A DNA stretch of 64,000 nucleotides from Bacillus sp. FJAT-29937 (GTDB lineage: Bacteria > Bacillota > Bacilli > Bacillales > Cytobacillaceae). Positions 1 to 48,253 of this stretch are shown here, piece after piece. A model generated the notes under the pieces. It saw only the letters and a program-made list of their open reading frames with translations. It did no database searches and was not told the DNA's origin. Location of the stretch: the NCBI RefSeq assembly GCF_001509555.1, contig NZ_LMAS01000002.1:248001-312000 (forward strand). Direction: 5' to 3'. The translations under genes and the position numbers were made by a program. How positions within the stretch are numbered: position 1 is the first letter of the stretch; each line of letters starts with the position of its first letter.

Positions 1-265
1 TCCGATTGGATCCATTCAAGTGCCTGATGGGGTAGAGCCGATCGCTCTCTTAAACGATGCCGTGACAGGCGGAGGATACGCGACGATTTGTACCATTATT
101 AGTACAGATTTAAATAAAATGGCCCAAATCAAGACCAATGAAAAAGTTCGGTTTGTGGCAGTTGATATCCACGAAGCACTTGAGATCCGCAAAGATTATC
201 AGAATAAAATCAATCAAATGAAGCAGCAAGTATTAGCTCAAGTAGGAGGATTAAAAAATGGCTGA
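1..265 (+). CDS. 5-oxoprolinase subunit C-like / AHS2 carboxyltransferase, 5' truncated
   Basis: Only the last ~87 residues are in the window; the reading frame is open from base 2, so the apparent GTG at 20 is internal. The visible part (PIGS..., then NDAVTGGGYATI) aligns by eye with the C-terminus of the complete PxpC-like protein at 11945-12922 (PIGS..., NDATTGGGFITI), at roughly 40% identity. Members of this family (allophanate hydrolase subunit 2, KipA, PxpC) form the carboxyltransferase or hydrolase core together with PxpB. The stop overlaps the start of the biotin carrier gene by 8 nt, so it is translated with the biotin carrier and biotin carboxylase. A PxpB partner probably lies just upstream, outside the window. 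It is a paralogue of the 11945 gene, not a recent copy. Confidence 0.85.
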   Translation, partial: PIGSIQVPDGVEPIALLNDAVTGGGYATICTIISTDLNKMAQIKTNEKVRFVAVDIHEALEIRKDYQNKINQMKQQVLAQVGGLKNG

Positions 266-506
266 ACAAAAAACAGTACTAACACCAATCCCAGGAGTTT
301 TCTATCGCAAACCAGCTCCAGATAAGGATGTGTATATAAAAGAAGGAGCCCTTGTAAAAGTGGGCGATGTGATCGGCCTTGTCGAGGTTATGAAAAACTT
401 TTACGAAATTAAAGCGGAGAATGAGGGAGTTCTAGCGCAATTCTTTGTTGAAGACGAGGACCTTCTCGATGCAGGCCAGGAAATAGCAGTCATCATTGAA
501 CAGTAA
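258..506 (+). CDS. Biotin carboxyl carrier protein (short, biotinyl-lipoyl domain only)
   Basis: An 82-residue protein that consists of little more than a biotinyl domain. The segment IPGVFYRKPAPD (residues 11-22) resembles the start of AccB carrier domains. The biotinylation site is EVMKNF with Lys46 as the acceptor; the usual motif is AMKM, so the residue before Met is Val and the one after Lys is Asn. It lacks the Ala/Pro-rich linker and N-terminal region of the housekeeping AccB (~150-160 residues). This points to a dedicated carrier for the neighbouring carboxylase rather than for acetyl-CoA carboxylase. It starts inside the preceding AHS2 gene and ends 28 nt before the biotin carboxylase start. 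Confidence 0.88.
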   Translation: MAEQKTVLTPIPGVFYRKPAPDKDVYIKEGALVKVGDVIGLVEVMKNFYEIKAENEGVLAQFFVEDEDLLDAGQEIAVIIEQ

Positions 507-534
507 AATTTTTCTGAAGAGGAGGGAAATGCGG

Positions 535-1890
535 ATGGCTTATTTTAAAAAGGTGCTGATTGCAAACAGAGGGGAAATTGCGAGGAGAATTATTCGCACC
601 TGTAAGAAGCTTGGCATCGATACAGTTGCAGTCTATTCCGAGGCTGATGCAGAGGCGCCTCATGTTAGTGAGGCTACTGAGGCTGTTTGCATCGGTCCAG
701 CCCAAGCGAAAAAAAGCTATCTTAATGTAGAAAAAGTTATTCAGGTAGCAAAAGAGACGAAATCGGATGCGATTCATCCGGGCTATGGATTTTTATCGGA
801 AAATCCGGAATTTGTTCGGCGCTGTGAGGAGGAAAATATTGTTTTTATCGGTCCTTCCGCAGAAACGATTCGCCTGATGGGAAGCAAGCTTGAAGCACGC
901 ATTCAAATGCAAAAAGCAGGCGTAAGCGTTGTACCGGGTACGGATAAAAGCATTGAATCGATAGAGGAAGCTATTCAGATTGCCAATGATCTTGGCTATC
1001 CGCTTATGCTAAAAGCAAGTGCGGGCGGCGGCGGTATCGGGATGCAGCTCGTGCATAATGAAGACGAGTTACAAAAGGTGTTTGATTCGACAAAACAGAA
1101 GGCAAATTCATTCTTCAATGATGGCACTGTTTTTCTGGAAAAATGGATTTCAACACCTCGCCATATTGAGGTGCAAGTCGTTGCAGATGCCTACGGAAAC
1201 GTCATGCATTTATTTGAAAGAGAATGCTCCGTCCAACGGCGAAATCAAAAGGTAATCGAGGAAAGTCCTTCGCCGTTTCTAGATGAAGCCCTTCGAAATG
1301 AGCTGTTGGAAGCGGCCATTCGTGGCGTTAAGCAAATCGATTATACAAATGTTGGCACAATGGAATTTATTTTTGACGGAAATAAAAATTTCTATTTCCT
1401 TGAGATGAATACCCGCTTGCAGGTCGAACATCCGGTAACGGAAGAAATAACAGGATTGGATTTAGTGGAGCTGCAGCTAAAGATAGCTGCAAAAGAACGA
1501 TTGACTTTTACCCAGGATGATATTACAAAAACAGGCCATGCAATTGAATGCAGGCTTTATGCAGAGGATCCAGTAACGTTCTTCCCTAGTCCGGGGGTTA
1601 TTTCTAGCTTGGAGCTGCCGGGAGATGATGTCAGGTATGATTTTGGCTTCATTAACGGAAGTGCGGTTACCCCTTTTTATGATCCGATGATTGGAAAAAT
1701 TATCGTTCACGGCATATCCCGTGATGACGCAATTTGTAAAATGCAAAAAGTTCTTGAAGAAATGGATATTCAGGGAGTAAAAACGAATCTGCCGCTCCTC
1801 GAAAAGATAATGAAAAACGAGCAATTTATAAGCGGAAATTATACGACTGAATTTCTGGCAGAGCATAAAGCAGAACTGCAAAAGAGGTGA
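535..1890 (+). CDS. Biotin carboxylase (AccC-like, ATP-grasp)
   Basis: A 451-residue biotin carboxylase of usual family length, catalysing ATP- and bicarbonate-dependent carboxylation of carrier-bound biotin. Visible features are the N-terminal biotin-carboxylase domain (FKKVLIANRGEIARR), the glycine-rich ATP-grasp loop KASAGGGGIGM, and the signature EMNTRLQVEHPVTE. I chose ATG 535 because GGAGGG at 521-526 is 8 nt upstream; the ATG at 529 is too close, and the TTG at 496 lies inside the previous gene. Its place between the biotin carrier and PxpA, beside AHS2, makes a discrete-subunit version of a urea-carboxylase-like architecture more likely than a fatty-acid role. Confidence 0.92.
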   Translation: MAYFKKVLIANRGEIARRIIRTCKKLGIDTVAVYSEADAEAPHVSEATEAVCIGPAQAKKSYLNVEKVIQVAKETKSDAIHPGYGFLSENPEFVRRCEEENIVFIGPSAETIRLMGSKLEARIQMQKAGVSVVPGTDKSIESIEEAIQIANDLGYPLMLKASAGGGGIGMQLVHNEDELQKVFDSTKQKANSFFNDGTVFLEKWISTPRHIEVQVVADAYGNVMHLFERECSVQRRNQKVIEESPSPFLDEALRNELLEAAIRGVKQIDYTNVGTMEFIFDGNKNFYFLEMNTRLQVEHPVTEEITGLDLVELQLKIAAKERLTFTQDDITKTGHAIECRLYAEDPVTFFPSPGVISSLELPGDDVRYDFGFINGSAVTPFYDPMIGKIIVHGISRDDAICKMQKVLEEMDIQGVKTNLPLLEKIMKNEQFISGNYTTEFLAEHKAELQKR

Positions 1891-1895
1891 AATAA

Positions 1896-2660
1896 ATGCT
1901 TAAAGTAGATTTGAACTGTGATATGGGGGAAAGCTTTGGCCTCTATGAATTAGGCAATGATGAAGAAATGATGCAGTACATTACCTCCGCCAACATCGCT
2001 TGTGGTTTTCATGCTGGTGATCCGCATGTAATGAGGAAGACAGTAGAGCTTGCGAAGAAATACGAAGTTGGAATTGGCGCGCATCCCGGATTTCCTGATC
2101 TATTGGGCTTTGGCCGCCGATTCATGACTTGTACGCCAGCAGAAGTTAAAGATTATGTCATGTACCAGGTTGGTGCTTTAAGAGAATTCTGTGCTTCAGC
2201 CAAAGTGAATATCCAGCATTGTAAGCCGCATGGAGCTTTATTTATGAAAGCGGCGGAGGATAAGGCATTAGCACGTGCCATTTTAGAGACGCTTCATAAT
2301 ATCGATCCGGAAATGATTATTTTCGCTCTTAATCAGTCCGAATTGTTTGAGGAAGCAATTAAAATGGGCGTTCCAGTTGCGAAAGAAGCTTATTCGGATC
2401 GTGAGCATACTGAAAGCGGCTCGATTGTTTTGACGAGGAAAGGGACGGCAATCACCGATTATGAGGCCATGGCGCAACGGGTTGTTCAAATGGTGAAAGA
2501 AGAACGGGTGATCACTCATGATGGGAAGGATGCTCCGATCAAAGCTGAAACCATTTGCATACACGGCGATACACCAGGTGCACCTATTTTAGCCAAGACA
2601 ATAGTTGAGGCCTTAAAGATGAGCGGAGTGGAGATTGTTCCAATTAGGAAAATAATTTAA
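1896..2660 (+). CDS. pxpA: LamB/YcsF family protein, 5-oxoprolinase subunit A
   Basis: A 254-residue protein with the family's N-terminal signature DLNCDMGESFG (residues 5-15) and the conserved HCKPHGALF and HGDTPGAP segments. PxpA acts with PxpB and PxpC to open 5-oxoproline in an ATP-dependent way; relatives may act on other lactams. It starts 5 nt after the biotin carboxylase stop with a GAGGTGA site, so it is co-translated. Association with a biotin carboxylase and carrier suggests a biotin-dependent variant of the Pxp reaction. Whether the substrate is 5-oxoproline or the product of the molybdenum hydroxylase downstream cannot be read from the sequence. Confidence 0.9.
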   Translation: MLKVDLNCDMGESFGLYELGNDEEMMQYITSANIACGFHAGDPHVMRKTVELAKKYEVGIGAHPGFPDLLGFGRRFMTCTPAEVKDYVMYQVGALREFCASAKVNIQHCKPHGALFMKAAEDKALARAILETLHNIDPEMIIFALNQSELFEEAIKMGVPVAKEAYSDREHTESGSIVLTRKGTAITDYEAMAQRVVQMVKEERVITHDGKDAPIKAETICIHGDTPGAPILAKTIVEALKMSGVEIVPIRKII

Positions 2661-2665
2661 ATATA

Positions 2666-2697
2666 GGAGCCATCGCTCCCTTCCTTTATAGGAAGGG
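2666..2697 (+). other. Overlapping stem-loops between pxpA and coxG
   Basis: GGAGC (2666-2670) pairs with GCTCC (2675-2679), and CCCTTCC (2678-2684) pairs with GGAAGGG (2691-2697) around a TTTATA loop. The stems share two bases, so they compete. No T-run follows, so this is not a convincing terminator; it may be a processing or mRNA-stability element in the intergenic gap. Confidence 0.4.
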
Positions 2698-2790
2698 ATA
2701 AGGCTGTGATTAGCAAAGTTTTAAAATGGAATTATTCGAATTTTGGAAATAAACAACAAGATGTCAAAACTGTTATAAGGAGAGGTCGCT

Positions 2791-3237
2791 TTGAAAATTG
2801 AGCATTCATATACTTTCAAGGGTATCCCAAGAGAAGTGCTATGGAGAACCATTCAAGATAAGGAGGTGTTGAAAAGGTCGTTACCAGGATGTAAGTCATT
2901 TGTTGAGGTAGAGGACAATGTTTTTGAGTCTGAGCTAGGCATTAGTATTGGTCCTGTAAAGGGAGTTTTTACAGGGGGTGTCCGGCAGGTTGATCAAAAG
3001 GATCCTGAATTTTACCGTCTGCTTGTTACCGGAAAGGGCAAGCCAGGTGAAATTGATGCGGATGCTGAAATGGCTTTAATTGAAACAGAAGAAGGAACTG
3101 TACTTGAATGCAAGGCAGATGTGAAATTGACAGGTATTCTCGCTTCGGTTGGCCAGAGAGTCATGAGTGGAGTTGCGAAGGTCGTCATTGGTCAATTTTT
3201 TAAAGATATAGATAAAGAGGCGAAACAGCTCGTCTAA
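2791..3237 (+). CDS. CoxG-like SRPBCC protein (carbon monoxide dehydrogenase subunit G family)
   Basis: A 148-residue protein resembling the CoxG/SRPBCC fold: the N-terminal strand HSYTFKGIPREVLWR, then LPGCKSF, and a C-terminal amphipathic helix. CoxG proteins accompany molybdenum hydroxylases of the CO dehydrogenase/xanthine dehydrogenase family and have been linked to maturation or membrane recruitment. The start is TTG 2791, set by AAGGAGAGG at 2777-2785. It precedes the 2Fe-2S subunit by 70 nt. The name does not imply CO oxidation here (see the large subunit). Confidence 0.8.
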   Translation: MKIEHSYTFKGIPREVLWRTIQDKEVLKRSLPGCKSFVEVEDNVFESELGISIGPVKGVFTGGVRQVDQKDPEFYRLLVTGKGKPGEIDADAEMALIETEEGTVLECKADVKLTGILASVGQRVMSGVAKVVIGQFFKDIDKEAKQLV

Positions 3238-3307
3238 CGTAATTTAATTATTTCTGTAGCGAGCCAAGGTAAATGTAATTAAAGGTACTAATTGGGAGGT
3301 GCAGTGA

Positions 3308-3820
3308 ATGGCAATCGAAAATGTAAATGTAAAGGTGAAAATCAACGGAAAAGAAAAATGCGCGGATGTAGAGCCGCGAACGCTGCTTGTTCACTATATT
3401 CGTGATGATCTTGGTTTGACAGGTACTCATATTGGCTGTGATACAAGTCAGTGTGGAGCATGTTCGGTTATGGTGGATGGAGAAGTAGTGAAATCGTGTA
3501 CAATGTTGGCTGTTCAAGCAGACGGATCAGAAATTACAACAGTAGAAGGCCTAGGGCAAGTAGGGAATTTGCATCCAATCCAGCAAAGTTTTTGGGAAAA
3601 GCATGGGCTGCAATGCGGATACTGTACACCTGGGGTGATGATTGCAGCGGTTGGTCTGCTGAAGCAAAATCCAAATCCAACTGATGAGGAAATTCGTGAA
3701 GGACTTGAAGGGGTTATTTGCCGCTGTACTGGCTATCAATTTATTGTTGAAGCAGTCAAACATGCAGCGCAGCTTATGAGAGAAACGGAAGTTCAATTAG
3801 TAGGAGAGGAGCGCTCATAA
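3308..3820 (+). CDS. Molybdenum hydroxylase small subunit, two [2Fe-2S] clusters (CoxS/XdhC-type)
   Basis: A 170-residue iron-sulfur subunit that passes electrons from the Mo centre to FAD. The plant-type cluster ligands are Cys44, Cys49, Cys52 and Cys64. The second cluster uses Cys103 and Cys106 (QCGYCTPG) with Cys138 and Cys140 (CRCTGY). Gln102 is the residue that in relatives contacts the molybdopterin cofactor. Length and motif order match CoxS and aldehyde/nicotinate dehydrogenase small subunits. Its last base is the first base of the next start codon (TAATG), so it is translationally coupled to the large subunit. Confidence 0.93.
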   Translation: MAIENVNVKVKINGKEKCADVEPRTLLVHYIRDDLGLTGTHIGCDTSQCGACSVMVDGEVVKSCTMLAVQADGSEITTVEGLGQVGNLHPIQQSFWEKHGLQCGYCTPGVMIAAVGLLKQNPNPTDEEIREGLEGVICRCTGYQFIVEAVKHAAQLMRETEVQLVGEERS

Positions 3821-6165
3821 TGACAAAGGTTGTTGGTGCTCGGCTGAAGAGGAAAGAAGATCCTAAGCTGATTACAGGTAATGGTAATTTTTCAGATGAC
3901 ATTGTACTCCCAGGAATGCTGCATGCCGCTATTTTGCGGAGCCCGCATGCTCATGCCATGATCAAAAGCATTAATGTGGAGGAAGCATTAAAGGCACCAG
4001 GGGTTGTAGCGATTTATACCGGGAAAGATTTAGAAGGCAAAATTGGCCGGATCCCTTCATCATGGCTTGTCCCGGGATGTGATTTGAAGGAAGCCCCGCA
4101 ATATCCACTGGCGATTGATCGAGTTCGCTATGTGGGAGATGGTGTTGCACTAGTCATTGCGGAAGGCCGCTATGCGGTTCGTGATGCCATGTACTTAATC
4201 GATGTTGAGTATGAAACGCTTGCACCTGCAGTAGGGCAGAAGAAATCGATGCAAGACAATGCTCCACTTGTTCATGACGATATTGAAAACAATATTGCGT
4301 TCCATTGGAAGGCGGGAGCAGTGCCTGAAGAGGTTTGTGAAAATGCAGAGGTATCTATTAAGCAAAGCTTTTATGTACAGCGGGTAGCGCCAAGTCCGAT
4401 TGAAACACGTGCAGCTATTGGCCAGTACAATCCTGGAAGCGGAGACTTGACACTTTGGTGCACCTCCCAAAATCCTCATATTCATCGGATGGTTTTAAGC
4501 GAAGTGCTCGGAATCTCAGAAGCTAAATTACAGGTAATTGCTCCAGATATGGGCGGTGGCTTTGGCGGAAAAATCGGCGTCTATCCTGATGAAGCACTTG
4601 TTGGCTATGCAGCACGGGATTTAGGCCGTCCTGTGAAATGGATTGAGGAAAGAAATGAACACTTTACTGCCTCTAACTATGGACGTGATGAAGTCCTTGA
4701 TGTCGAGTTATATGGGAAAAGGGATGGAACGCTAAGTGCCATTCGGGTGAAAAATACCCATAACGTCGGCGCATATTTATCGACAATGGGTCCAGGTGTT
4801 TCCACAATTGATTTTGGACTTATGATTACCGGGGCTTATAAAATCCCTCATGCATCATGTGAAACGTTTGGCGTTTATACGAATACAACACCAACTGACG
4901 CCTATCGTGGGGCAGGTAAGCCGGAATCAACTTATCAAATTGAGCGTGCAATTGAGTTATTCGCAAAAGAGATCGGGATGGATCCTATAGAGCTTCGAAG
5001 GAAAAATTTTGCCCAGAAAGAAGAGTTTCCTTTTACGAATGCACAGGGCTTAGTGTATGACAGCGGGGATTATGAAAAGCCGCTGGCAAAGGCTCTTGAG
5101 ATGCTAGATTATAATAAATTCCGGGAAGAACAGAAGGAACTGCGCAAGCAAGGAAAACTTGTCGGCATTGGGTTCTCCACATATGTGGAATTATGCGGAT
5201 TTGGACCATCTAAAGTTGCTGGTGCAATTGGATTCCAAGGGGGAGTTTGGGAAAACTCAACCGTTCGGGTCCATCCATCTGGAAAGGTGACAGTCTATTC
5301 TGGAACCTCTCCGCATGGTCAAGGACATGCGACAACTTTTGGTCAAGTCGTATCGGAAAAGCTTGGCATTCCAATGGATGACATTGAACTCGTGTTTAGC
5401 GATACAAAGTCAATCTCGATGGGGTGGGGAACATATGGATCCCGTTCAGTAGCCGTAGGGGGCGCTGCAGTTTCCTTTGCGACAGACCGCGTTATTGAAA
5501 AGGCAAAGAAAATTGCTGCCCATGAGCTTGAAGCTTCTGTAGAAGACATTGCATTTGAAAATGGAATCTTTTCAGTGAATGGCCAACCAGGCTTTGTACG
5601 CACATTCCAAGAAATAGCCAAATCAGCCAATATGGCATGGAATTTGCCGGAAGGATTAGAACCATCCTTAGAAGCTCAGGCCTTTTTCGACCCGGAAAAC
5701 TTTGTGTATCCGTTTGGCACACATATTGCGGTTGTTGAAATTGATAAGGCAACTGGACAAATCGAAATCAAACGATATATAGCAGTTGATGATGTTGGGC
5801 GTGTTATCAACCCATTAACCGCAGAAGGCCAAGTGCATGGCGGTATTGCTCAGGGAATCGGTCAGGCACTTTGGGAGGGAGCAGTTTATAACGAAGATGG
5901 GCAGCTGTTAACCGGAACATTTATGGATTATGTGCTGCCAAAAGCTCGCTTTTTCCCTAAGATCGAAACGGCTTTTACTGAAACCTTATCCCCAGTTAAC
6001 CCACTTGGTGCAAAAGGGATTGGAGAAACAGGGACGACTGCATCAACTCCAGCGATCATGAACGCGGTTATGGATGCGCTTGAGCAATACGGAATTAAAG
6101 ATATTGAAATGCCGCTTACACCTGAAAAAGTATGGCGGGCTATTTCAGAAAGTGAGGGCAAGTAA
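3820..6165 (+). CDS. Molybdenum hydroxylase large (molybdopterin-binding) subunit
   Basis: A 781-residue Mo-cofactor subunit of the xanthine dehydrogenase/CoxL family that hydroxylates its substrate with water-derived oxygen. The N-terminal a/b hammerhead domain is followed by MGGGFGGK (cofactor loop). The active-site loop AYRGAGK is at residues 361-367, and the catalytic glutamate is Glu736 in GIGETG. The loop lacks the cysteine of true (form I) CO dehydrogenase (AYRCSFR), so CO is not the expected substrate; an aldehyde or N-heterocycle is. Neighbouring biotin-dependent lactam-hydrolase genes favour an N-heterocycle (inference). Confidence 0.93.
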   Translation: MTKVVGARLKRKEDPKLITGNGNFSDDIVLPGMLHAAILRSPHAHAMIKSINVEEALKAPGVVAIYTGKDLEGKIGRIPSSWLVPGCDLKEAPQYPLAIDRVRYVGDGVALVIAEGRYAVRDAMYLIDVEYETLAPAVGQKKSMQDNAPLVHDDIENNIAFHWKAGAVPEEVCENAEVSIKQSFYVQRVAPSPIETRAAIGQYNPGSGDLTLWCTSQNPHIHRMVLSEVLGISEAKLQVIAPDMGGGFGGKIGVYPDEALVGYAARDLGRPVKWIEERNEHFTASNYGRDEVLDVELYGKRDGTLSAIRVKNTHNVGAYLSTMGPGVSTIDFGLMITGAYKIPHASCETFGVYTNTTPTDAYRGAGKPESTYQIERAIELFAKEIGMDPIELRRKNFAQKEEFPFTNAQGLVYDSGDYEKPLAKALEMLDYNKFREEQKELRKQGKLVGIGFSTYVELCGFGPSKVAGAIGFQGGVWENSTVRVHPSGKVTVYSGTSPHGQGHATTFGQVVSEKLGIPMDDIELVFSDTKSISMGWGTYGSRSVAVGGAAVSFATDRVIEKAKKIAAHELEASVEDIAFENGIFSVNGQPGFVRTFQEIAKSANMAWNLPEGLEPSLEAQAFFDPENFVYPFGTHIAVVEIDKATGQIEIKRYIAVDDVGRVINPLTAEGQVHGGIAQGIGQALWEGAVYNEDGQLLTGTFMDYVLPKARFFPKIETAFTETLSPVNPLGAKGIGETGTTASTPAIMNAVMDALEQYGIKDIEMPLTPEKVWRAISESEGK

Positions 6166-6166
6166 T

Positions 6167-7024
6167 TTGATACCTTCTAAATTTGATTATGTTCGCGTAA
6201 ATTCCATTGATGAGGCCATTCAGCAATTACAGCAATGTAATGGCGAAGGAAAGCTGATTGCTGGAGGGCATAGCTTAGTTCCACTTTTGAAATTCAGATT
6301 ATCGGAGCCAGGCGCTCTGATAGATATTAGCCGCATTGCCGAGCTAAAAGGGGTTCAAAAGGATGGAGATCGCATCGTTATTGGTGCACTCACGACCCAT
6401 TTCCAAGTTGCGAATGATCCAATTGTAAAAGAACATATTCCTGTTTTATCTGAAACCGTCAGTCAAATTGGCGATTTGCAGGTGCGCAACCGGGGAACGA
6501 TTGGCGGGAATATTGCTCATGCGGATCCAGCTGCAGACTTACCGGCCGCCGCTTACGTCCTTGATGCGGAAATTGCCTTTCATGGAGAAGCTGGCCCTGA
6601 GAAGATGGATATAGACAGCTTCATCGTAGGACCGCTTATTACGATGCTCCCTGAAAATAGTGTGTTAACGAGCGTTTCGTTTGCCATTCCACCAACGCAT
6701 ACGAAATCTACTTATCTTAAATTTTTCCACCCGGCTTCTGGTTATCCTGTCATCGGAGTCGCTGTTGTTGCTGGGGTTGGGGAAAATGATGTCATTGATT
6801 ACATTAAAATTGCCATTACAGGTGTCGGGGATGTTCCATACCGTGCGACCTCTGTAGAGGATAAGCTTCTTGGCCAAACCTTGTCTGAATCGGTGATTAA
6901 AGAAGCTGCACAATTGGCAGCCGATGAAGGGGAAATGGCATCTGATCTATACACTTCTGAGGAGTATAGAAGAAACCTTTGCAAGGTGTATACGGAGAGG
7001 GCATTGCATTCTGTCTTTTATTAA
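6167..7024 (+). CDS. Molybdenum hydroxylase FAD-binding subunit (CoxM-like)
   Basis: A 285-residue flavoprotein with the family's FAD-pyrophosphate motif AGGHSLVPLLK and the second motif TIGGNIAHADPAADLP, followed by the CO_deh_flav C-terminal domain. It completes a small-large-medium set of subunits and hands electrons to the final acceptor. The start is TTG 6167, two bases after the large-subunit stop, with GAGGG at 6154-6158 inside that gene; the frame is open further upstream only within the large-subunit gene. A terminator-like hairpin follows. Confidence 0.9.
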   Translation: MIPSKFDYVRVNSIDEAIQQLQQCNGEGKLIAGGHSLVPLLKFRLSEPGALIDISRIAELKGVQKDGDRIVIGALTTHFQVANDPIVKEHIPVLSETVSQIGDLQVRNRGTIGGNIAHADPAADLPAAAYVLDAEIAFHGEAGPEKMDIDSFIVGPLITMLPENSVLTSVSFAIPPTHTKSTYLKFFHPASGYPVIGVAVVAGVGENDVIDYIKIAITGVGDVPYRATSVEDKLLGQTLSESVIKEAAQLAADEGEMASDLYTSEEYRRNLCKVYTERALHSVFY

Positions 7025-7044
7025 AAAAATAGTTAAATAGAATA

Positions 7045-7079
7045 GGGGGCGCATCTTAACTAGAGAGACGCCCCTTTTT
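7045..7079 (+). terminator. Intra-cluster intrinsic terminator
   Basis: GGGGCG (7046-7051) pairs with CGCCCC (7069-7074), followed by TTTTT. It lies between the FAD subunit and the maturation genes and would lower expression of xdhC/mocA relative to the enzyme subunits. Confidence 0.65.
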
Positions 7080-7107
7080 AAATTTATTATTTTAAGGAGG
7101 TAAAAGG

Positions 7108-7434
7108 ATGACTGACAATGAATTAATAATTGAAGCTATAAATAACACAAGAAAATTAGGTCGAAAATCGGCATTAGCCACTGTAGTAAGTGTTGCGGGT
7201 TCAGCTTATAAAAGAGAAGGGGCGAAAATGCTGGTTGATGAGGAAGAGAATAGGATCGGGATGATTTCAGGAGGATGTCTGGAGTCGGATGTTGCTGAAG
7301 TGGCAAAATCTGTAATGGCGTCAGGCGCCCCTATTTTAAAGACATACGATTTAGATGAGGATCTAGTTTGGGGACTTGGACTTGGCTGCCCAGGCACGGT
7401 GAAAATTTACATCGAACCTGTCGAGCCTTATTAA
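7108..7434 (+). CDS. XdhC/CoxI family, N-terminal domain as a separate protein
   Basis: A 108-residue protein carrying only the XdhC_CoxI domain: LATVVSVAGSAYKREGAKM and GMISGGCLESDVAE (conserved Cys), ending at GLGLGCPGTVKIYIEP. XdhC proteins bind the Mo cofactor, promote its sulfuration and insert it into the apoenzyme. In most relatives this domain is fused to a C-terminal Rossmann domain; here that half is the next gene. Both halves have their own ribosome binding sites (TTAAGGAGG before this one), so this is a real split, not a sequencing frameshift. Confidence 0.88.
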   Translation: MTDNELIIEAINNTRKLGRKSALATVVSVAGSAYKREGAKMLVDEEENRIGMISGGCLESDVAEVAKSVMASGAPILKTYDLDEDLVWGLGLGCPGTVKIYIEPVEPY

Positions 7435-7454
7435 ATAATTGATGGAGGGGTAAT

Positions 7455-8276
7455 ATGTTAAATCTATCACCATTTGAAGCATGGTTAACTAGTTTCAAAG
7501 AAGAGCGGGAGTGTGTCCTGGCAACAATTCTGCCAATCAATCCATCACATCAATCTAAAGAGCCTTACCGTTTGTTTGTTTCTGGAAGCCGCGAAACGAT
7601 TGGCGACCTTGGCGATGAGGACATCAATCTAAGGGTAACAGAGCTGGCAAGTAGAAAATTAAATGAAACAAATCCAAAGTCGGAGACACGTGTGTTCACA
7701 ATGCCGGACGGCAATGAGATTCATGTTTTTATAGATGTATATATTCCACCGGTAGAATTGATGATTTTCGGTGCCGGACATGATGCCATTCCAGTGGCAA
7801 AATATGCGGTTTCATTAGGATTCAAAACAACTGTTGTAGACCAAAGGGAATTTTACAATAATGAGGAGCGTTTTCCGGGAACGAACAGGCTGATCGTCAA
7901 AACGAGTGAATTTCAGGAGAAAATTAAGATTGGCAGGAGAACCTATATCGTTGTGATGAATCATCATATTGAGAGAGACCAGGAAACATTAAAGTTTGTT
8001 TTGCGCTCCCCATCGCCATATATTGGTGTCCTTGGCCCGCGCTCCCGCCGCATTCGAATGATAGAGGGTCTGGGGGAAGACGGAGTCTTTTTCGATGAAA
8101 ATGAACTGAATAGAATGTACAGTCCAATTGGTTTAGATATTGGAGCTGTATCACCAGAAGAAATCGCCCTTAGTATTCTAGCAGAGGTAGTTGCGAAAAA
8201 GAATGGCCATTCGGGAGGATTTTTACAAGGATCTGATTATATTCACCGGGCATCGAGCACGAAGGAGCCCGTATGA
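7455..8276 (+). CDS. XdhC/CoxI family, C-terminal Rossmann domain protein
   Basis: A 273-residue protein. Its second half is the XdhC C-terminal Rossmann domain: MIFGAGHDAIPVAKYA (GxGxD-type nucleotide loop), VVDQREFYN, VVMNHH and YIGVLGPRSRR. About 95 residues before this (WLTSFKEERECVLATI) look like a degenerate N-terminal XdhC domain. It starts at ATG 7455 with GGAGGGG and ends in a 4-nt ATGA overlap with the nucleotidyltransferase gene. It probably works with the 108-residue protein in Mo-cofactor insertion. Confidence 0.88.
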   Translation: MLNLSPFEAWLTSFKEERECVLATILPINPSHQSKEPYRLFVSGSRETIGDLGDEDINLRVTELASRKLNETNPKSETRVFTMPDGNEIHVFIDVYIPPVELMIFGAGHDAIPVAKYAVSLGFKTTVVDQREFYNNEERFPGTNRLIVKTSEFQEKIKIGRRTYIVVMNHHIERDQETLKFVLRSPSPYIGVLGPRSRRIRMIEGLGEDGVFFDENELNRMYSPIGLDIGAVSPEEIALSILAEVVAKKNGHSGGFLQGSDYIHRASSTKEPV

Positions 8277-8902
8277 ACGGACATACAATAAACCCATCTA
8301 TTTGTGCTGTTATTCTTGCAGCTGGCACGTCATCCCGAATGGGGCGGCCAAAGCAGTTGCTTGAATTGAATGGACTGCCGCTTCTAGAGCATGTCATTCG
8401 TGCAGCACTTTCAGGAAACTTTTCCGAAATTATTACGGTTATAGGCTGTGAAGCTGATAAAATTCAAAAAGCTATTTCAATAGAGGACCCGCGCTTTCGC
8501 TGGGTAATCAATGAAGATTATTTATCTGGGCAAGGCTCTTCTTTTAAAACAGGGATTTTAAACGCAGGAGATACCCATTCCGGAGTGATGGTATTCCTCG
8601 GCGATCTTCCTTTTATTTCAGAAAGCACTGTTCAATCCATTTATCAAACCGGGAAAGGCATGTTTAAAGTTCAACATGAAAGCTTCGTTATTCAGCCTGA
8701 GTATAGCGGCATAACAGGTCATCCCGTATTTTTCGGTCATCCAGATCGAAATTTATTTATGGAGATTCAAGGTGACCGCGGTGCAAAAGCAATAATGAAC
8801 AAAATCCCTCATCGAAAGTCCATCACTGTGGATGATCGCGGCATTTTATTCGATATTGATACTCCTGAAGCATATGAAGAAGCGATAAATCAGAATGGAT
8901 AG
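8273..8902 (+). CDS. Molybdenum cofactor cytidylyltransferase-like (MocA/MobA family)
   Basis: A 209-residue NTP transferase with the N-terminal signature VILAAGTSSRMGRPKQLL and a GDLPF metal-binding aspartate segment. MocA converts Mo-molybdopterin to the cytosine dinucleotide form used by this class of hydroxylase. That agrees with the neighbouring enzyme and XdhC proteins. It is translationally coupled to the preceding gene. GTP-specific MobA is the alternative; context favours CTP. Confidence 0.87.
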   Translation: MNGHTINPSICAVILAAGTSSRMGRPKQLLELNGLPLLEHVIRAALSGNFSEIITVIGCEADKIQKAISIEDPRFRWVINEDYLSGQGSSFKTGILNAGDTHSGVMVFLGDLPFISESTVQSIYQTGKGMFKVQHESFVIQPEYSGITGHPVFFGHPDRNLFMEIQGDRGAKAIMNKIPHRKSITVDDRGILFDIDTPEAYEEAINQNG

Positions 8903-9001
8903 AAATATCTTTATATTCGGTCTATTAATTTCCAATTTATTCATTGAAAAAGTATAATAACCTTATATGAGATTCGTGCTAAACAGGAGGGGTCGGATAG
9001 G

Positions 9002-11041
9002 GTGATTATTTGGAAGGATATTCTGAAGCCGATTTCAAACTTTATTGATGTTCAGAGTTCGATTGAGGATGTTATTCACCATTTTTCCAATCAAAATGCG
9101 GAAATTGTTTTAGTAACAGATCAAGGTTCTCTAGTAGGTTATTGTACGAAGGAGCTTCTATTGAATCAAATTGCCCAATCCTCGGACTTAACACAGCTTA
9201 TTACATATAGAAATGATATTTTAAAAGTTCCGCAGTTTTCTCCAGTTGAATTTTATCATAACGCTTCTTTAATGATTGGAGTGAATGATAAGGGAGAATT
9301 CGTCGGTTATACGACTATTGAACAGGCGCGGCATCAAATGAGTGAACTGCGTTTAAAAGATATAAATCTTTTGCTGCACGGTGCTGGAGTGGGAATTGTT
9401 AGAACGAATATTAATTATCAAATTGAGTTCATTAATGAAACAGCAGAAAATATACTCGGAATCCCTAGCTCATTTCTCATGTTTCGAAACTATAAAACGC
9501 TTTTAACGAATGATAAAAATTTAGAAAAGGTCATGGACGGAGAAACGCTTGTCACTGTAAACTCTTCCATTAACTTTAAACAAATTAGCGGAAACTTTTA
9601 TCCTTTACAGATTGATGGGAACATTACAGGACTTGTCCATGTTTTTTTCTCTAAAGAAGTTTTCGAGGAAGCTGTACATGAGCTAGACTTTGTTCGAAAT
9701 TTAAATTCGGATTTACAGGCTGTTTATGCATCTTCTCAAGAACAAATACTCGTGATTGACGGAAGTGGAAAAATCATTCGTGTCGCGGGCATGTTTCTAG
9801 AAGACTTTTGGAAGGTGGAAAAGCCGGAGAATATCATCGGGAAAAATATCGATGAATTCTCGAAAAGGAATATATTTCAGCCGAATGTGTTTGATTTGTG
9901 CAAGAAGCAAAAGAAAAAGGTGACAGCCATTCAAGATTCCGCTGGAAACAGTAGAGTTTGGTCGGTTGCCACACCCGTTTACCACGAAGGAAAATTAGAG
10001 AAAGTCGTTATTCTTTCAAGGGATATTACCCAGCAAAGCACCTCCCTTAAAGAAGAAGAAACGGATCCATCTTTACATAATAGACAGGAAAAAAATCATA
10101 ATGAAAAAAGGCTTGTGTACCGTTCGAAAAAAATTGAGCAATTAGTTGCAGAGATTAAAAGAGTGGCCCAATTTAATTCAACCATTTTACTAGAAGGTGA
10201 TTCTGGAGTCGGGAAAGAAGTATTTGCCCAGCAAATCCATACAGCAAGTCCTAGAAGCAATCAGCCGTTTGTTCGAATTAACTGTGGGGCGATACCGGAA
10301 AACTTGATCGAAAGTGAACTATTTGGATACGAGAAGGGTTCCTTTACTGGCGCAGACAAAAATGGGAAAGCGGGTCTATTTGAGATGGCTAACAATGGCA
10401 CGCTATTTCTTGATGAAATTGGCGAATTGCCTTTAAATATGCAAGTAAAGCTATTGCGTGTATTGCAGGAACGGGAAGTGACAAGGATAGGCGGAGTAAG
10501 GCCGGTTGCTGTAAATGTTCGGATTATTACAGCCACAAATAAGGACTTGCAGGAAATGGTCAATAAGGGCGAGTTTAGGGAAGATTTATACTACCGATTA
10601 TATGTCATTCCTTTTCGTATTCCTTCTTTACGTGAGCGGAAAGAAGATATTCTGCCTTTGTCGATTTACTTTTTGGAGAAATTTAAACAAATGTATGATA
10701 TAAAAAAAAGCTTCACCCCAGAAGCTATTGAAGTATTGGAGACGTATGCATGGCCTGGAAATGTAAGGGAGCTCCAAAATATTGTGGAACGGTTAATTCT
10801 GCTGACTGACGGTGAATGGATTCAGCGGGAACACGCATTAAAATATCTGTACGGTGAAGTGGAAAAGAAGAAAAAGCAGCTATTTGTTTTGGAACTGATG
10901 CCATTGAAAGAAGCTGTTGAAGAATTAGAAACCCAATTAATTGAGCGGGGAATGCAAAAATATCGGACTGCTGATAAATTATCCAAGGTGCTAGGAGTAA
11001 GTCCAGCAACGATCAGCAGGAGGATCAAAAAGCTGAAATAA
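9002..11041 (+). CDS. Sigma-54-dependent transcriptional activator with N-terminal sensor domains
   Basis: A 679-residue enhancer-binding protein. Residues ~1-120 look like a CBS-type pair (DVQSSIEDVIHHF, LVGYCT, FVGYTT). They are followed by two PAS-like segments (~125-220 and ~235-345), then the AAA+ domain with Walker A GDSGVGKE (399-406). The sigma-54 contact loop is GSFTGA (446-451), Ser in place of the usual first Ala. The C-terminus is a Fis-type HTH (LGVSPATISRRIKKLK). GTG 9002 has AGGAGGGG upstream. It probably activates the Mo-hydroxylase/Pxp cluster; no -24/-12 site is visible for it in the window, so the target promoter is likely upstream of base 1. Confidence 0.92.
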   Translation: MIIWKDILKPISNFIDVQSSIEDVIHHFSNQNAEIVLVTDQGSLVGYCTKELLLNQIAQSSDLTQLITYRNDILKVPQFSPVEFYHNASLMIGVNDKGEFVGYTTIEQARHQMSELRLKDINLLLHGAGVGIVRTNINYQIEFINETAENILGIPSSFLMFRNYKTLLTNDKNLEKVMDGETLVTVNSSINFKQISGNFYPLQIDGNITGLVHVFFSKEVFEEAVHELDFVRNLNSDLQAVYASSQEQILVIDGSGKIIRVAGMFLEDFWKVEKPENIIGKNIDEFSKRNIFQPNVFDLCKKQKKKVTAIQDSAGNSRVWSVATPVYHEGKLEKVVILSRDITQQSTSLKEEETDPSLHNRQEKNHNEKRLVYRSKKIEQLVAEIKRVAQFNSTILLEGDSGVGKEVFAQQIHTASPRSNQPFVRINCGAIPENLIESELFGYEKGSFTGADKNGKAGLFEMANNGTLFLDEIGELPLNMQVKLLRVLQEREVTRIGGVRPVAVNVRIITATNKDLQEMVNKGEFREDLYYRLYVIPFRIPSLRERKEDILPLSIYFLEKFKQMYDIKKSFTPEAIEVLETYAWPGNVRELQNIVERLILLTDGEWIQREHALKYLYGEVEKKKKQLFVLELMPLKEAVEELETQLIERGMQKYRTADKLSKVLGVSPATISRRIKKLK

Positions 11042-11059
11042 TAAGAGGAGTGACACCAA

Positions 11060-11944
11060 ATGTTTAACTTGCCTGAAACTCATTTTAATTTCGGCGGGGA
11101 TGAATATATTTATGCTGAGATATCCCGTGATATGAGGATTGAAAGTAACTTTAAGGCGTTGGCTGTAACGGACGAGCTTAGAAAAAGAGAAATCCCGGGA
11201 ATTATTGATATCGTTCCATCCAATTCATCCTATTTAGTCCGCTACAATCCAGATATCATCCCAGCAAGAGATTTACTCGATTTATTAAAGGAGATTGACT
11301 TAACGAAAAGCAATCCAACGAAGCTCCATTTTTCAGTCCGTATAGTGGAAATTCCAGCATGGTATGATGACCCCGTGTCAAAGGAATTTTCTTTCCGTTA
11401 TCGAAATAGACATCCTTCACCCGATTTATCTGATTTCGAATTTGTCATGAAAGTAAATGGATTCACAGATAAGGAAGCATTTATTAAAGCCCATTCAGAC
11501 ACTCCCTATTTAATTACGATGGTCGGTTTTCTTCCGGGAACGGCCTGGCATTTCCCCCTTGGATTACAGCCGAACGAAATTATTCAAGCACCAAAATACA
11601 ATAGTCCCCGGGCAGAAACACCGGAAAGGGGCATGGGCCTTGGCGGGGCGTTCAATGTGATTTACCCTGTAAGCGGACCAGGAACCTACCAGCTTATCGG
11701 CCGGTCAGCGGTTTCTGTAGTCGATCAGCATAATCACTCAGATGATCTCGAGGAGACATCTTTTTTGGCGAGGCCAGGTGATATTTGGAAGTATCGTCCA
11801 ATCAATGAATCTGAATATCATAAGATTACGAATGAAGAGAGGACCGGTAAGCATACCCTTAAAATGAAAGAAATTGACCTATCTCCACTTGAATATGCTG
11901 AGAAGGGCAAACAATATATCCAAGAGCTAATGGAGGATTTTTAA
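11060..11944 (+). CDS. 5-oxoprolinase subunit B-like / AHS1 (KipI family)
   Basis: A 294-residue protein of the allophanate hydrolase subunit 1 family. Recognisable parts are the N-terminal GGDEYIYAEISRDM, FLPGTAWHFPLGLQ in place of the usual GFxPGFxYL segment, and LIGRSAVSVVD. It is longer than KipI/PxpB (~240 residues) because of the central and C-terminal extensions. It starts 18 nt after the sigma-54 activator stop (GAGGAGTGA site) and ends directly at the next gene's ATG, so activator and AHS1/AHS2 form one transcript. Confidence 0.85.
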   Translation: MFNLPETHFNFGGDEYIYAEISRDMRIESNFKALAVTDELRKREIPGIIDIVPSNSSYLVRYNPDIIPARDLLDLLKEIDLTKSNPTKLHFSVRIVEIPAWYDDPVSKEFSFRYRNRHPSPDLSDFEFVMKVNGFTDKEAFIKAHSDTPYLITMVGFLPGTAWHFPLGLQPNEIIQAPKYNSPRAETPERGMGLGGAFNVIYPVSGPGTYQLIGRSAVSVVDQHNHSDDLEETSFLARPGDIWKYRPINESEYHKITNEERTGKHTLKMKEIDLSPLEYAEKGKQYIQELMEDF

Positions 11945-12922
11945 ATGATAGAGGTAAGGGAACCTGGGCTATGGACAACCGTACAGGATATGGGACGGAT
12001 CGGAAAATATCATTTAGGTGTTCCGCCATCTGGAGCGGCAGATAAATACTCTTTTATAATCGGAAACCTGCTAGTCGGAAATCCCGAAAATTCAGCAGCC
12101 CTTGAAATGACTTTAATCGGCGGAGAGCTTGAGTTTCATAAAAATTGCATAATCGCCTTGACAGGTGCCCCGATGGAAACCTATTTAAATAACAAGCCAA
12201 TCTCCTTCTGGGAAACCCACCAAGTAAAAGAAGGAGATGTTTTGCAAATAAAGGCATGCCCTAAAGGGGTAAAAAGTTATTTATGCATGTCAGGCGGTAT
12301 TAATGTTCCAGAAGTTATGGGCAGTAAATCTACCTATGAATTAAGCCGTATAGGCGGTTATCAAGGCAGAAAATTAGCCGCCGGAGACAGAATCCAAATA
12401 AATGAGCCATTACCTGAAGCCTTCAAGCAAATCGGCAAAACAATCCCAATTGAATTTATTCCGTCTTTTAGCGACTTTCAAGAATTACGGGTCATGATGG
12501 GGATTACCGGTTATTTAATGAATGACCTTGCACTGAAAACCTTTCTTAATTCAGAATGGACGGTATCACATGAATCGAATCGCGTTGCTTACCGTTATAA
12601 AGGGCCAAAGGTGTCATTTACCGAGCAGAATCCTCCATTCGGTGCAGGGAATAGTTTTTCCAATGTAGTTGATATCGCTTATCCGATTGGTTCTGTATTA
12701 TTTACAAATGAGGAAGAACTGATTGTTCTGCAAAATGACGCTACAACGGGCGGAGGGTTTATTACAATTGGCACTGTCATTAGCCAGGATCTTGATTTAA
12801 TTGCCCAATCGAGACCACTATCCAAATGCCGCTTTATCGCCGTCACGATTGATCAGGCGATGCTGGCACGTGAGGAGAGGAGGAAGAAGATAGAAACGTT
12901 GGTACAAATGATGAAAGGGTAG
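11945..12922 (+). CDS. 5-oxoprolinase subunit C-like / AHS2 carboxyltransferase (KipA family)
   Basis: A complete 325-residue member of the biotin-dependent carboxyltransferase family. It has the N-terminal EPGLWTTVQDMGRIG, then LGVPPSGAAD, and the C-terminal NDATTGGGF. It forms the usual AHS1-AHS2 pair with the preceding gene (stop and start abut at 11944/11945). It is a second copy of the type cut off at the left window edge. No additional biotin carboxylase, carrier or PxpA follows, so this pair either shares those of the upstream cluster or works without biotin. Confidence 0.9.
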   Translation: MIEVREPGLWTTVQDMGRIGKYHLGVPPSGAADKYSFIIGNLLVGNPENSAALEMTLIGGELEFHKNCIIALTGAPMETYLNNKPISFWETHQVKEGDVLQIKACPKGVKSYLCMSGGINVPEVMGSKSTYELSRIGGYQGRKLAAGDRIQINEPLPEAFKQIGKTIPIEFIPSFSDFQELRVMMGITGYLMNDLALKTFLNSEWTVSHESNRVAYRYKGPKVSFTEQNPPFGAGNSFSNVVDIAYPIGSVLFTNEEELIVLQNDATTGGGFITIGTVISQDLDLIAQSRPLSKCRFIAVTIDQAMLAREERRKKIETLVQMMKG

Positions 12923-12968: not shown

Positions 12969-13023
12969 TTTACATTTTAATCCAATAAGTGTAGAATCTC
13001 TATATACCTAAAATAACTAGGTA
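12969..13023 (+). promoter_or_regulatory. padR promoter with downstream palindrome
   Basis: TTTACA (12969-12974), a 17-bp spacer and TAGAAT (12992-12997) form a sigma-A-type promoter. TACCTA (13005-13010) and TAGGTA (13018-13023) form an exact inverted repeat at the start of the transcript, just before the ribosome binding site. It is a candidate autoregulatory operator for the PadR protein. Confidence 0.55.
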
Positions 13024-13032
13024 GGTGATAAA

Positions 13033-13380
13033 ATGTTCAATCGTGAATTAGTTAAAGGAAGTTCATCCCTATTGCTTCTTCAAATGCTAGGCGAGCGGGA
13101 TATGTATGGGTATGAAATTGTTAAGGAGCTGGAGAAGCGCAGCGAAAATGAGTTCTCTTTTAAAGAGGGCACATTGTATCCGGCTCTTCATAAGCTCGAA
13201 AAGCAGGAATACATTGAATGCTATTGGCAGGAGCAGGAGAAGGGACCAGCCAGGAAGTATTATCGTATTACAGAGGCAGGAAAAGAAATGCTTCTTGAGA
13301 AAACCCGTGAATGGAATGACTTTGTTTCCGTAATGAACAAGGTGATGGGGAGAAAAAAGCATGGATCGGCTGAAGGATGA
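13033..13380 (+). CDS. PadR family transcriptional regulator
   Basis: A 115-residue PadR-type winged helix: [22 protein letters not shown], then the wing region [19 protein letters not shown] and [14 protein letters not shown]. Proteins of this size (PadR subfamily 2) are usually repressors responding to small molecules or envelope stress. It overlaps the next gene by 20 nt, a common pairing of PadR with a HAAS/DUF1700-type membrane protein. Confidence 0.9.
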
Positions 13381-13999
13381 GTTTTTAGAAGAGCTTGCAA
13401 AGCATCTCGCAAATCATAGCGAAAAAGAATTGATTTTAAAGGAATATGATGATCACCTTAATGAACTCCTTGTAGAGCTTTTCAGGCTAGAGGATGAATC
13501 CGAGGTGCGCAATCAAATCTATTCAAGGCTAGGAGCGCCCGAGGAGATTGCGGCCATGTGGAGAGAAGAACTTTCCGTTACACCCAGCAAAATGAAATGG
13601 CTGTTCATTGCCGTTAATATTCTTTTTTTTGCAGGCGGGTCTGTCCTTACGCTCGCACATAATCTGCTAAATTGGAGCTGGCTTACAAGCCTATGGGTTC
13701 AATTAACTTCTTTTCCGATATTAATTGCATTTATTTATCTGTTTTTCTGGGCGCTGCTTGGCTATGAAATTGGCAGAGGCTTTGGCCATAAAGGCAGAAA
13801 GTTGATGAAAACGACCTTTTTCTTGGCATCAATTCCAAATGTAACGCTAATGGCTCTGACGGTTTTCCGAATCATTCCCCATGAATGGTTTAGCCCGTTG
13901 CTGACTGAAACATTTATCGGGATCTGCATTTTGATGACACTACTTTTATACCCTGTGTGCCTGATTAGCTACAGGTGGGGGAAAAAAGCTTCTGTATGA
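13361..13999 (+). CDS. HAAS/DUF1700-type membrane protein
   Basis: A 212-residue protein. Residues 1-75 are a soluble helical domain ([37 protein letters not shown]) like the HAAS domain found next to PadR regulators. Four hydrophobic segments follow (about 80-105, 110-135, 155-175 and 180-205). Translation is coupled to padR by overlap. Such pairs are thought to sense and control an envelope or transport function, which may be the DUF4173 gene downstream (inference). The stop codon lies in the loop of a terminator. Confidence 0.72.
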
Positions 14000-14008
14000 G
14001 CTTTTTTT
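13982..14008 (+). terminator. Intrinsic terminator after the PadR module
   Basis: AAAAAAGCT and AGCTTTTTTT form a short stem that overlaps the end of the coding sequence and is followed by T residues. Confidence 0.6.
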
Positions 14009-14187
14009 GCCTATATACATAGAATGTCTACTTATATAGAAATTCTATATATTAAACATACTGCTCACAACTAAGAATGTAAATGTCGTGGCTTCATTAC
14101 ACTGCGCTGGTGATTACTCCGTACATCAAGGCTTGTTCAATAAATCCAATGATAATTTAGTTTTAATTCGAAAAAGGAGGCTTTATT

Positions 14188-45347: not shown

Positions 45348-45472
45348 TTTTACCCTCCTCCTATCTATATAATGAGTTGAAACCAACTCAGATGAATTGA
45401 AATCCGTTCATTTTTCCTCAGTTTTGAACAAAGTATGATATAAATCACTTATATTCTGAACACTTCTACTAT

Positions 45473-45488
45473 TGGCACAGTAATTGCA
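45473..45488 (+). promoter_or_regulatory. Sigma-54 (-24/-12) promoter
   Basis: TTGGCACAGTAATTGCA matches the sigma-54 consensus TGGCAC-N5-TTGCA. GG is at 45474-45475 and GC at 45486-45487, exactly 10 nt between them. It sits between the activator gene and the catabolic operon. Upstream, TTTTGAACA (near 45422) and TTCTGAACA (near 45455) are candidate activator sites, and TGAA...TTCA near 45396 another. Confidence 0.92.
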
Positions 45489-45499
45489 TTAGATAATGT

Positions 45500-48234: not shown

Positions 48235-48253
48235 GGATGCGAGGAGATTAAGA

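Follow-up and report, generated by a model that had tools for sequence, protein, structure and literature searches.

To our knowledge, the bacterial opening of unactivated lactams is poorly known outside 5-oxoproline and caprolactam. Here we describe a gene cluster of Bacillus sp. FJAT-29937 (NCBI RefSeq assembly GCF_001509555.1), at the left end of positions 248,001 to 312,000 of contig NZ_LMAS01000002.1 (a 64-kb stretch of a 4.55 Mb genome, hereafter the window), in which a molybdenum hydroxylase is joined to a biotin-dependent enzyme that resembles both urea carboxylase and the 5-oxoprolinase PxpABC. The genes stand in the order AHS1a-AHS2a-BCCP-BC-PxpA-CoxG-CoxS-CoxL-CoxM-XdhC(N)-XdhC(C)-MocA-sigma-54 activator-AHS1b-AHS2b, where BCCP is a biotin carrier, BC is a biotin carboxylase, and AHS1a/AHS2a and AHS1b/AHS2b are two complete carboxyltransferase (CT) pairs. 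We read the cluster, with a probability of a little under 0.6, as a sigma-54-controlled catabolic operon that would turn a cyclic imine into a lactam and the lactam into gamma-aminobutyrate (GABA) or a close relative, in two stages. At the sequence level, this reading is supported by gene content, by co-occurrence of the two enzymes, by a shared promoter and palindrome code, and by GABA genes beside homologous clusters. No description of the cluster was found in the open-access literature searched, a scope that leaves most subscription papers outside.

Several described systems resemble parts of the cluster. In Aspergillus, LamA is annotated as urea-carboxylase-like, and the PxpA family (Pfam LamB_YcsF) is named after LamB of Aspergillus nidulans. 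The sections of PMC8016842 that concern these genes place gatA, lamA and lamB under the control of AmdR and link the lactam catabolism genes with a GABA transaminase. The bacterial cluster, likened here by gene content, holds the LamA/LamB-type set (BC, CT and BCCP with LamB/PxpA) as split genes, followed by a molybdenum hydroxylase and under sigma-54 control. Urea carboxylase (TIGR02712, PDB 3va7) has BC, BCCP and CT_A_B/CT_C_D domains in common with the cluster, which differs from it in its separate subunits, in the presence of PxpA, in a PxpB-like GF-PG loop and in the separate position of AHS2a and AHS2b in a tree. A split transferase encoded by two adjacent bacterial genes was called unstudied in 2011, and the section in question draws no link from these urea-carboxylase-like genes to BC/BCCP, to a molybdenum hydroxylase or to GABA (PMC3199775). 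PxpABC likewise consists of PxpA and two CT halves, but a biotin carrier is found in 77 of 80 loci of the present module and in 2 of 20 canonical pxp loci, and AHS1a falls below the PxpB cut-off. Caprolactamase CapAB resembles the proposed enzyme in its ATP-driven opening of a lactam and its need for bicarbonate, with a carboxy-lactim route under discussion, whereas the same part of that report describes CapAB as of HyuA/HyuB type and unlike PxpABC (PMC8453981). The cluster is no new category: it combines known kinds, a split LamA/LamB-like opening of lactams and a molybdenum hydroxylase.

Results

To follow the cluster through other genomes, the named genomes were scanned with an AHS1a alignment, and the best 80 of 148 relatives were analysed as loci: 52 from Bacilli (Bacillales in the wide sense), 14 from Rubrobacterales or unplaced actinobacterial bins, 13 from Pseudonocardiaceae and an Actinomadura, and 1 other. 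Neighbouring genes were called by tblastn, with window genes, GABA genes and a few further references as queries, at a query coverage of at least 40%; pieces at locus ends are missed in this way, and several loci are cut by contig ends. As controls served 20 of 97 canonical PxpB matches at safe contig positions, 20 kb each, all from the window's family. AHS2a was found in all 80 loci, BCCP and PxpA in 77 each, BC in 66, CoxL in 45 (33 Bacilli, 6 of the Rubrobacterales group, 6 Pseudonocardiaceae/Actinomadura including Prauserella, 0 other) and any of CoxS, CoxL or CoxM in 47; Cox genes are present in 41 of the 58 loci whose flanks extend 8 kb or more in both directions. The 20 control loci, all with PxpA, contain no CoxL, CoxS, CoxM, gabT or AHS1b, gabD once, and BC and BCCP twice each. 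The coupling of the two enzymes claimed in the original prediction, which was made from the window alone, is borne out in other genomes, with CoxL near AHS1a in 45/80 loci against 0/20 controls.

A separate survey covered 193 genomes of the family, the CoxL scan scoring the best 5 candidates per genome. CoxL relatives of at least 65% identity occur in 14 of them (the next best CoxL is at 43%) and AHS1a relatives of at least 67% identity in 15, and all 14 CoxL genomes are among these 15 (Fisher p 2e-20, a descriptive value, as related species are treated as independent). The linkage of molybdenum hydroxylase and ring-opening enzyme is not chance, and a coincidence peculiar to one strain is contradicted. 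Gene order varies among genera, with Cox genes before or after the module, which makes a frozen inherited neighbourhood a weak explanation. Contamination of the assembly is rated at 9.28%, but related genomes have the cluster as well.

The ring-opening module is found without any Cox match in 11 of the 43 Bacilli loci that have 8 kb or more of flank on each side, and also in G090; five modules without a detected CoxL (L059, L063, L067, L096, L100) have the same promoter, palindrome and activator. The reverse, the CoxL subfamily without the module, was not found among the best 5 candidates of each of the 193 family genomes. A module that lives without CoxL and a CoxL not found without the module in the family are as expected if the molybdenum enzyme is an added upstream step, and they lend indirect support to the 'oxidise first, open second' order of the original prediction; the order of reactions itself stays a proposal.

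The two halves also share their regulatory signals. The genome encodes rpoN and contains 39 perfect -24/-12 sites of the form TTGGCAY-N5-TTGCW (the backward control pattern gives 0), one of which starts 57 bp before AHS1a, preceded by two TTTCA-N4-TGAAA palindromes that lie 96 and 75 bp upstream of it, 21 bp apart. Together with the Sigma54_activat domain of the cluster's regulator, rpoN and this promoter support the sigma-54 control that had been predicted. The promoter precedes AHS1a in 29 of 55 loci (our own, one of the same genus and 53 named), and 27 of these 29 promoters have the palindrome upstream (0.1 expected from shuffles); in the other 26 loci, AHS1a directly follows MocA or XdhC in 17 and a gab gene in 3. 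A search of the 80 named loci for pairs of an exact palindrome and a promoter matching at 10/12 or better returned 34, of which 25 stand before AHS1a, 8 before CoxG and 1 elsewhere (in L065, where no reference gene follows and the next large open reading frame has 402 residues). Two loci, L062 and L071, are the only ones with both halves as separate operons with readable promoters, and there each half has its own palindrome TTTCA-N4-TGAAA and -24/-12 promoter. In the window's genome, the palindrome stands at the AHS1a promoter only, among the 30 promoters checked out of 39. Judged by its promoters, the cluster is under joint control. In 19 of 20 cases AHS1b comes immediately after the activator gene, and a CBS match in the activator stays under the Pfam cut-off (16.9 against 24 bits). 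Two loci, L050 and L051, show the sigma-54 activator with AHS1b-AHS2b alone; AHS1a, BC, BCCP and PxpA were not detected in these 20-kb stretches, where the size limit on open reading frames could miss BCCP.

In the window, the genes form a run of intact open reading frames on the + strand (1-12922), and the gene families and single direction first read from the sequence agree with the family models. The full cluster exceeds the window by 1.6 kb on the left (to about window -1656): the AHS2 seen at the window start does belong to that family but is only the 3' end of AHS2a, whose partner AHS1a, the first gene, was found with the sigma-54 promoter by extending leftward. The features are as follows.

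Sigma-54 promoter: L005 2344-2360 (from about window -1656), + strand
AHS1a (CT_C_D): L005 2401-3270 (window -1599 to -730), + strand; left of the window
AHS2a (CT_A_B): L005 3267-4265 (window -733 to 265), + strand; 3' end at window 1..265
BCCP, biotin carrier: 258..506, + strand; NF005457 105.1 bits (above 87), PF00364, EVMKN biotinyl-lysine motif
BC, biotin carboxylase (ATP-grasp): 529..1890, + strand; NF006367 637.8 bits (above 597), EMNTRLQVEH intact
PxpA/LamB-type hydrolase: 1896..2660, + strand; PF03746 318.4 bits, NF003814 334.5 (above 226), motifs
CoxG, molybdenum-hydroxylase-associated: 2791..3237, + strand; PF06240 84.5 bits
CoxS, 2Fe-2S subunit of the molybdenum hydroxylase: 3308..3820, + strand; family model match
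CoxL, molybdenum-binding subunit: 3820..6165, + strand; active-site loop AYRGAGKP, GAKGIGETGT
CoxM, FAD subunit: 6167..7024 (start TTG 6167 or earlier), + strand; family model match
XdhC N-terminal half, molybdenum cofactor insertion: 7108..7434, + strand; PF02625
XdhC C-terminal Rossmann half: 7455..8276, + strand; PF13478
MocA-like molybdenum cofactor cytidylyltransferase: 8273..8902, + strand; best match TIGR03310 149.5, under the cut-off of 186.45
Sigma-54 activator: 9002..11041, + strand; PAS, AAA+ with GSFTGA loop, Fis-type helix-turn-helix
AHS1b (CT_C_D): 11060..11944, + strand; second carboxyltransferase half
AHS2b (CT_A_B): 11945..12922, + strand; second carboxyltransferase half

For CoxM, the TTG start at 6167 appears more likely than ATG 6074. 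XdhC, first taken as a single gene, is present as two separate reading frames, a split that recurs in 7 same-genus loci (L036-L042). The gap between PxpA and CoxG measures 130 bp and contains a weak hairpin; across this gap, a single transcript for the whole cluster is likely but less than certain. To its left lie a class III aminotransferase and an aldehyde dehydrogenase (ALDH) with their own perfect sigma-54 site; a hairpin with a T run was read by eye 3' of this pair and was not listed by the hairpin scan. About 9 kb to the left of the cluster, a urease-like operon (L004 4330-9316, - strand) was recognized from its translations.

The ring-opening enzyme stands between two known families. 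The cluster's PxpA belongs to the PxpA family, and an intact biotinyl lysine and BC catalytic motif fit the mechanism of a biotin-dependent carboxylase: the lysine of the MK motif is present in 77 of 77 BCCP homologues (70 recognised by pattern and 7 by eye) and EMNTR-QVEH in 64 of 66 BC homologues. On the PxpB model TIGR00370 (cut-off 145.55), AHS1a and AHS1b reach 70.5 and 73, and the genome's canonical PxpB passes with 238.8; on the PxpC model NF045499 (cut-off 500), AHS2a and AHS2b score 240.2 and 196.5, and the canonical PxpC of the same genome is also under it, at 293.2. The proteins are not urea carboxylase by TIGR02712 either (cut-off 1303.85; AHS1a 127, AHS2a 263.2, BC 573.2, BCCP 19.7), yet urea carboxylase is the best NCBIfam match of AHS1a, and PDB 3va7 and 5i8i align with it over residues 3-274. 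In a 40-row tree, the AHS2b proteins (10 rows, support 100/100) and the AHS2a proteins (20 rows, 89/92) form one group each, separate from urea carboxylase and from four canonical PxpC rows, which do not group among themselves and include one long branch.

Conserved positions tell a similarly mixed story (here, as in the tree and motif comparisons, homologues may be up to 15 residues too long at the N-terminus). The a and b proteins alike share the residue of urea carboxylase rather than that of canonical PxpB/C at AHS1a D98, P99, K172, T180, G188 and Y203 and at AHS2a D242 and Y245; they agree with PxpB/C and not with urea carboxylase at I136, M148, F151, P153, I168 and P176 and at AHS2a W89, Y131 and D281. 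We infer that AHS1a/AHS2a may be a biotin-dependent transferase with a lactam-type pocket. Of the positions shared among AHS1a/AHS2a, canonical PxpB/C and urea carboxylase, AHS1b most often has that shared residue at 15 of 17 and AHS2b at 45 of 49, so that a dead sensor is not favoured; the b pair is probably catalytically competent, a second carboxyltransferase that would act on another lactam with the same BC and BCCP. Urea carboxylation was considered and is not favoured, given the urease-like operon to the left and the PxpA carried by the module. The canonical locus of the genome (L052, contig C7:15000-30000) consists of pxpA and a transporter gene, divergent pxpB-pxpC, and then its own BCCP and BC. 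Biotin genes are found in only 2 of the 20 control loci; some canonical 5-oxoprolinases, too, may make use of biotin.

CoxL, CoxS, CoxM and CoxG resemble aerobic CO dehydrogenase and other hydroxylases of the xanthine oxidase family, with CoxD/E-like partners in some loci. Form-I CO dehydrogenase has the active-site loop AYRCSFR. CoxL of the cluster has AYRGAGKP instead and scores 731.7 bits on TIGR02416, under the cut-off of 991.15, and form-I CO dehydrogenase was rejected on these grounds. Its PDB relatives are quinoline 2-oxidoreductase and 6-hydroxypseudooxynicotine dehydrogenase. On the 52-kb Rubrobacter indicoceani plasmid NZ_CP031117.1 (L188), a divergent accC is followed by AHS1-AHS2-PxpA-BCCP-CoxL. 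A second molybdenum hydroxylase and an integrase gene lie near the module on this plasmid. A single clade of module-associated CoxL is not supported by the tree (2 changes, with an unresolved fork), and the association may have arisen twice. Molybdate-transporter-like genes were seen near the cluster in L062, L068, L070 and L072, and molybdopterin synthesis genes inside it in L062 and L037.

The strongest clues to the substrate come from the neighbours of the module. In L060 (Sporosarcina) and L073 (Pseudogracilibacillus), gabR-gabT-gabD adjoins it, with GabR at 723 and 682.2 bits (cut-off 600), the GABA transaminase over its cut-off and succinic semialdehyde dehydrogenase (SSADH) just under (643.8 and 643.9 of 646.35). 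Calling gabT at an identity of at least 45% to the L060 gene, we found it in 14 of 80 loci (7 Bacilli, 7 of the Rubrobacterales group). Whole-genome searches of 12 of these 14 genomes gave a single over-cut-off gabT, in the locus, in 11 and one of two in the twelfth (L078). It is on this rarity of gabT per genome that the GABA argument rests; the comparison of 14/80 loci with 0/20 controls is by itself not significant (p 0.066). The recurrence of GABA transaminase, SSADH and GabR points to a gamma- (or delta-) lactam, and with GABA as product the substrate would be 2-pyrrolidone. It also disfavours nicotinate, purines and hydantoins, which had been named as candidate substrates.

Nine unassigned neighbour families occur in at least 4 Bacilli loci; those that could be placed, three by Pfam and the rest by reading, comprise ABC and molybdate transporters, MoxR, CoxE and NCS1, and rarer neighbours are mostly without identity. 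In the window itself, a second sigma-54 operon (43998-49333) with a divergent activator and a perfect -24/-12 site at 45472 encodes a Rieske-type oxygenase (by reading), an ALDH and a member of the tartrate dehydrogenase family (499.5 bits, above 470.4), an arrangement that we take to resemble a carnitine/betaine route. The ALDH to the left of the cluster is 67% identical to the one in this operon, a kinship that suggests C4 semialdehydes as substrates. The best PDB match of the adjacent aminotransferase is an amine transaminase, with putrescine aminotransferase among the next; it could make 4-aminobutanal/1-pyrroline or consume GABA.

Discussion

The favoured route would lead from 1-pyrroline over 2-pyrrolidone to GABA. 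CoxSLM, matured by CoxG, XdhC and MocA, would hydroxylate a cyclic imine at the carbon next to its nitrogen. The most likely imine is 1-pyrroline, into which 4-aminobutanal cyclises, and its product would be the lactam 2-pyrrolidone. This conversion is stated, with no enzyme named, in the pertinent part of PMC3432380. BC would then carboxylate biotin on BCCP with ATP and bicarbonate, AHS1a/AHS2a would transfer the carboxyl group to the lactam, in the way that urea carboxylase acts on urea, and PxpA would hydrolyse the activated ring to GABA and CO2, after which an aminotransferase and an aldehyde dehydrogenase would take GABA to succinate. The PAS/sigma-54 activator would bind the TTTCA-N4-TGAAA palindromes and turn the operon on. 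The original prediction, an oxidation followed by an ATP- and bicarbonate-dependent ring opening, is probably right in outline; we narrow it to the opening of a lactam that would yield an omega-amino acid, most likely GABA.

A number of observations weigh against this proposal. No gene of the window's own genome exceeds the GABA-transaminase cut-off (the best reaches 444.6 of 506.65 bits), and the aminotransferase beside the cluster scores 206.4 on that model, its best NCBIfam match being PRK07480 with 444.5 of 510; its promoter lacks the palindrome, so that the idea of one activator governing the aminotransferase-ALDH operon as well is not supported, and binding of the palindrome by the activator is itself presumed from co-occurrence. 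The count of gabT against controls, taken alone, has been given above. BC was not detected in 10 of the 52 Bacilli loci, all ten of which have BCCP; there, BC would have to come from elsewhere. CoxS and CoxM were not detected beside CoxL in eight loci, one of them cut by a contig end (L120, L121, L124 and L130 in Prauserella; L103, L107, L110 and L114 in the Rubrobacterales group), in which CoxL follows BCCP or BC, in L103 after an amidase-family gene (13016-14530, PF01425, 333 bits) that lies between BCCP and CoxL. Among 3 of 1143 plasmid matches checked, which include the Rubrobacter one, the CoxL relatives of Halococcus and Azospirillum (49-50% identity) have no annotated module within 8 kb. 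To these are added the glutarate-type neighbours and NCS1 permeases taken up next.

The chemistry could run on a different ring. A six-membered one would be oxidised from 1-piperideine to 2-piperidone and opened to 5-aminovalerate and on to glutarate, a side route of lysine and cadaverine; we consider this unlikely but the nearest competitor. GABA transaminases often accept 5-aminovalerate too, and in Neobacillus mesonae (L045/L079) an aminotransferase 64% identical to the window's neighbour lies in the same region as the module. With it are genes for an acyl-CoA dehydrogenase (best matches acryloyl-CoA reductase, 400.5 of 640 bits, and glutaryl-CoA dehydrogenase, 367.8 of 470) and for a CoA-transferase that scores 470.1 of 750 bits as succinate-glutarate type, neighbours that fit 5-aminovalerate better. 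None of these glutarate-type genes is over its cut-off, however, and between them and the module come a separate sigma-54-activator-like gene and one with a weak resemblance to symporters, whereas a GABA transaminase over its cut-off and GabR stand right beside the module in other genera. Somewhat less probable still is another cyclic amide, such as a hydantoin, a dihydropyrimidine or a nucleobase-derived lactam, made by the molybdenum hydroxylase from an aromatic N-heterocycle (pyridine, pyrimidine or purine). Molybdenum hydroxylases of this family, among them the two PDB relatives of CoxL, oxidise such rings, 7 of 80 loci have an NCS1 permease, which could hint at a substrate resembling a nucleobase, and hydantoinase/oxoprolinase HyuA or HyuB is found in 3 of 80; the neighbour families that could be placed, however, are not carbamoylases or pyridine-pathway genes, and it is gabT and gabD that recur instead.

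That the two enzymes serve unrelated nitrogen-scavenging pathways, sharing only regulator and locus, is a slightly poorer prospect again. The frequent modules without CoxL among full-flank Bacilli speak for it, but the CoxL subfamily was not found without the module in the survey of 193 family genomes, the association extends to Actinomycetota, and both operons of L062 and L071 have the same palindrome and promoter. A second 5-oxoprolinase recycling pyroglutamate is highly improbable: the module is homologous to PxpABC and its PxpA passes the PxpA subfamily model, yet the genome keeps a separate canonical pxpA-pxpB-pxpC locus whose PxpB passes the model on which AHS1a and AHS1b fail, AHS2a and AHS2b stand apart from canonical PxpC in the tree, and glutamate needs no GABA transaminase. 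As a substrate, 5-oxoproline itself is unlikely in view of that separate locus.

Returning to the favoured route from imine over lactam to GABA, we put forward a wider proposal tentatively, at somewhat less than even odds: the cluster would represent a bacterial class of biotin-dependent lactam-opening enzymes, in which a split urea-carboxylase-like transferase N- (or O-) carboxylates an unactivated lactam for a PxpA-type hydrolase, a dedicated molybdenum hydroxylase makes the lactam and a second CT pair widens the range of substrates, forming one imine-to-lactam-to-omega-amino-acid regulon in Bacillota and Actinomycetota. For 2-pyrrolidone or a closely related compound, the cluster offers a route that can be tested, with its enzymes named, and it predicts dependence on ATP, bicarbonate and biotin. 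If true, the proposal would explain cases like the Rubrobacter plasmid, in which biotin carboxylase genes adjoin PxpABC homologues under annotations as acetyl-CoA carboxylase and 5-oxoprolinase, and would give a physiological role to CoxL proteins that are annotated unspecifically.

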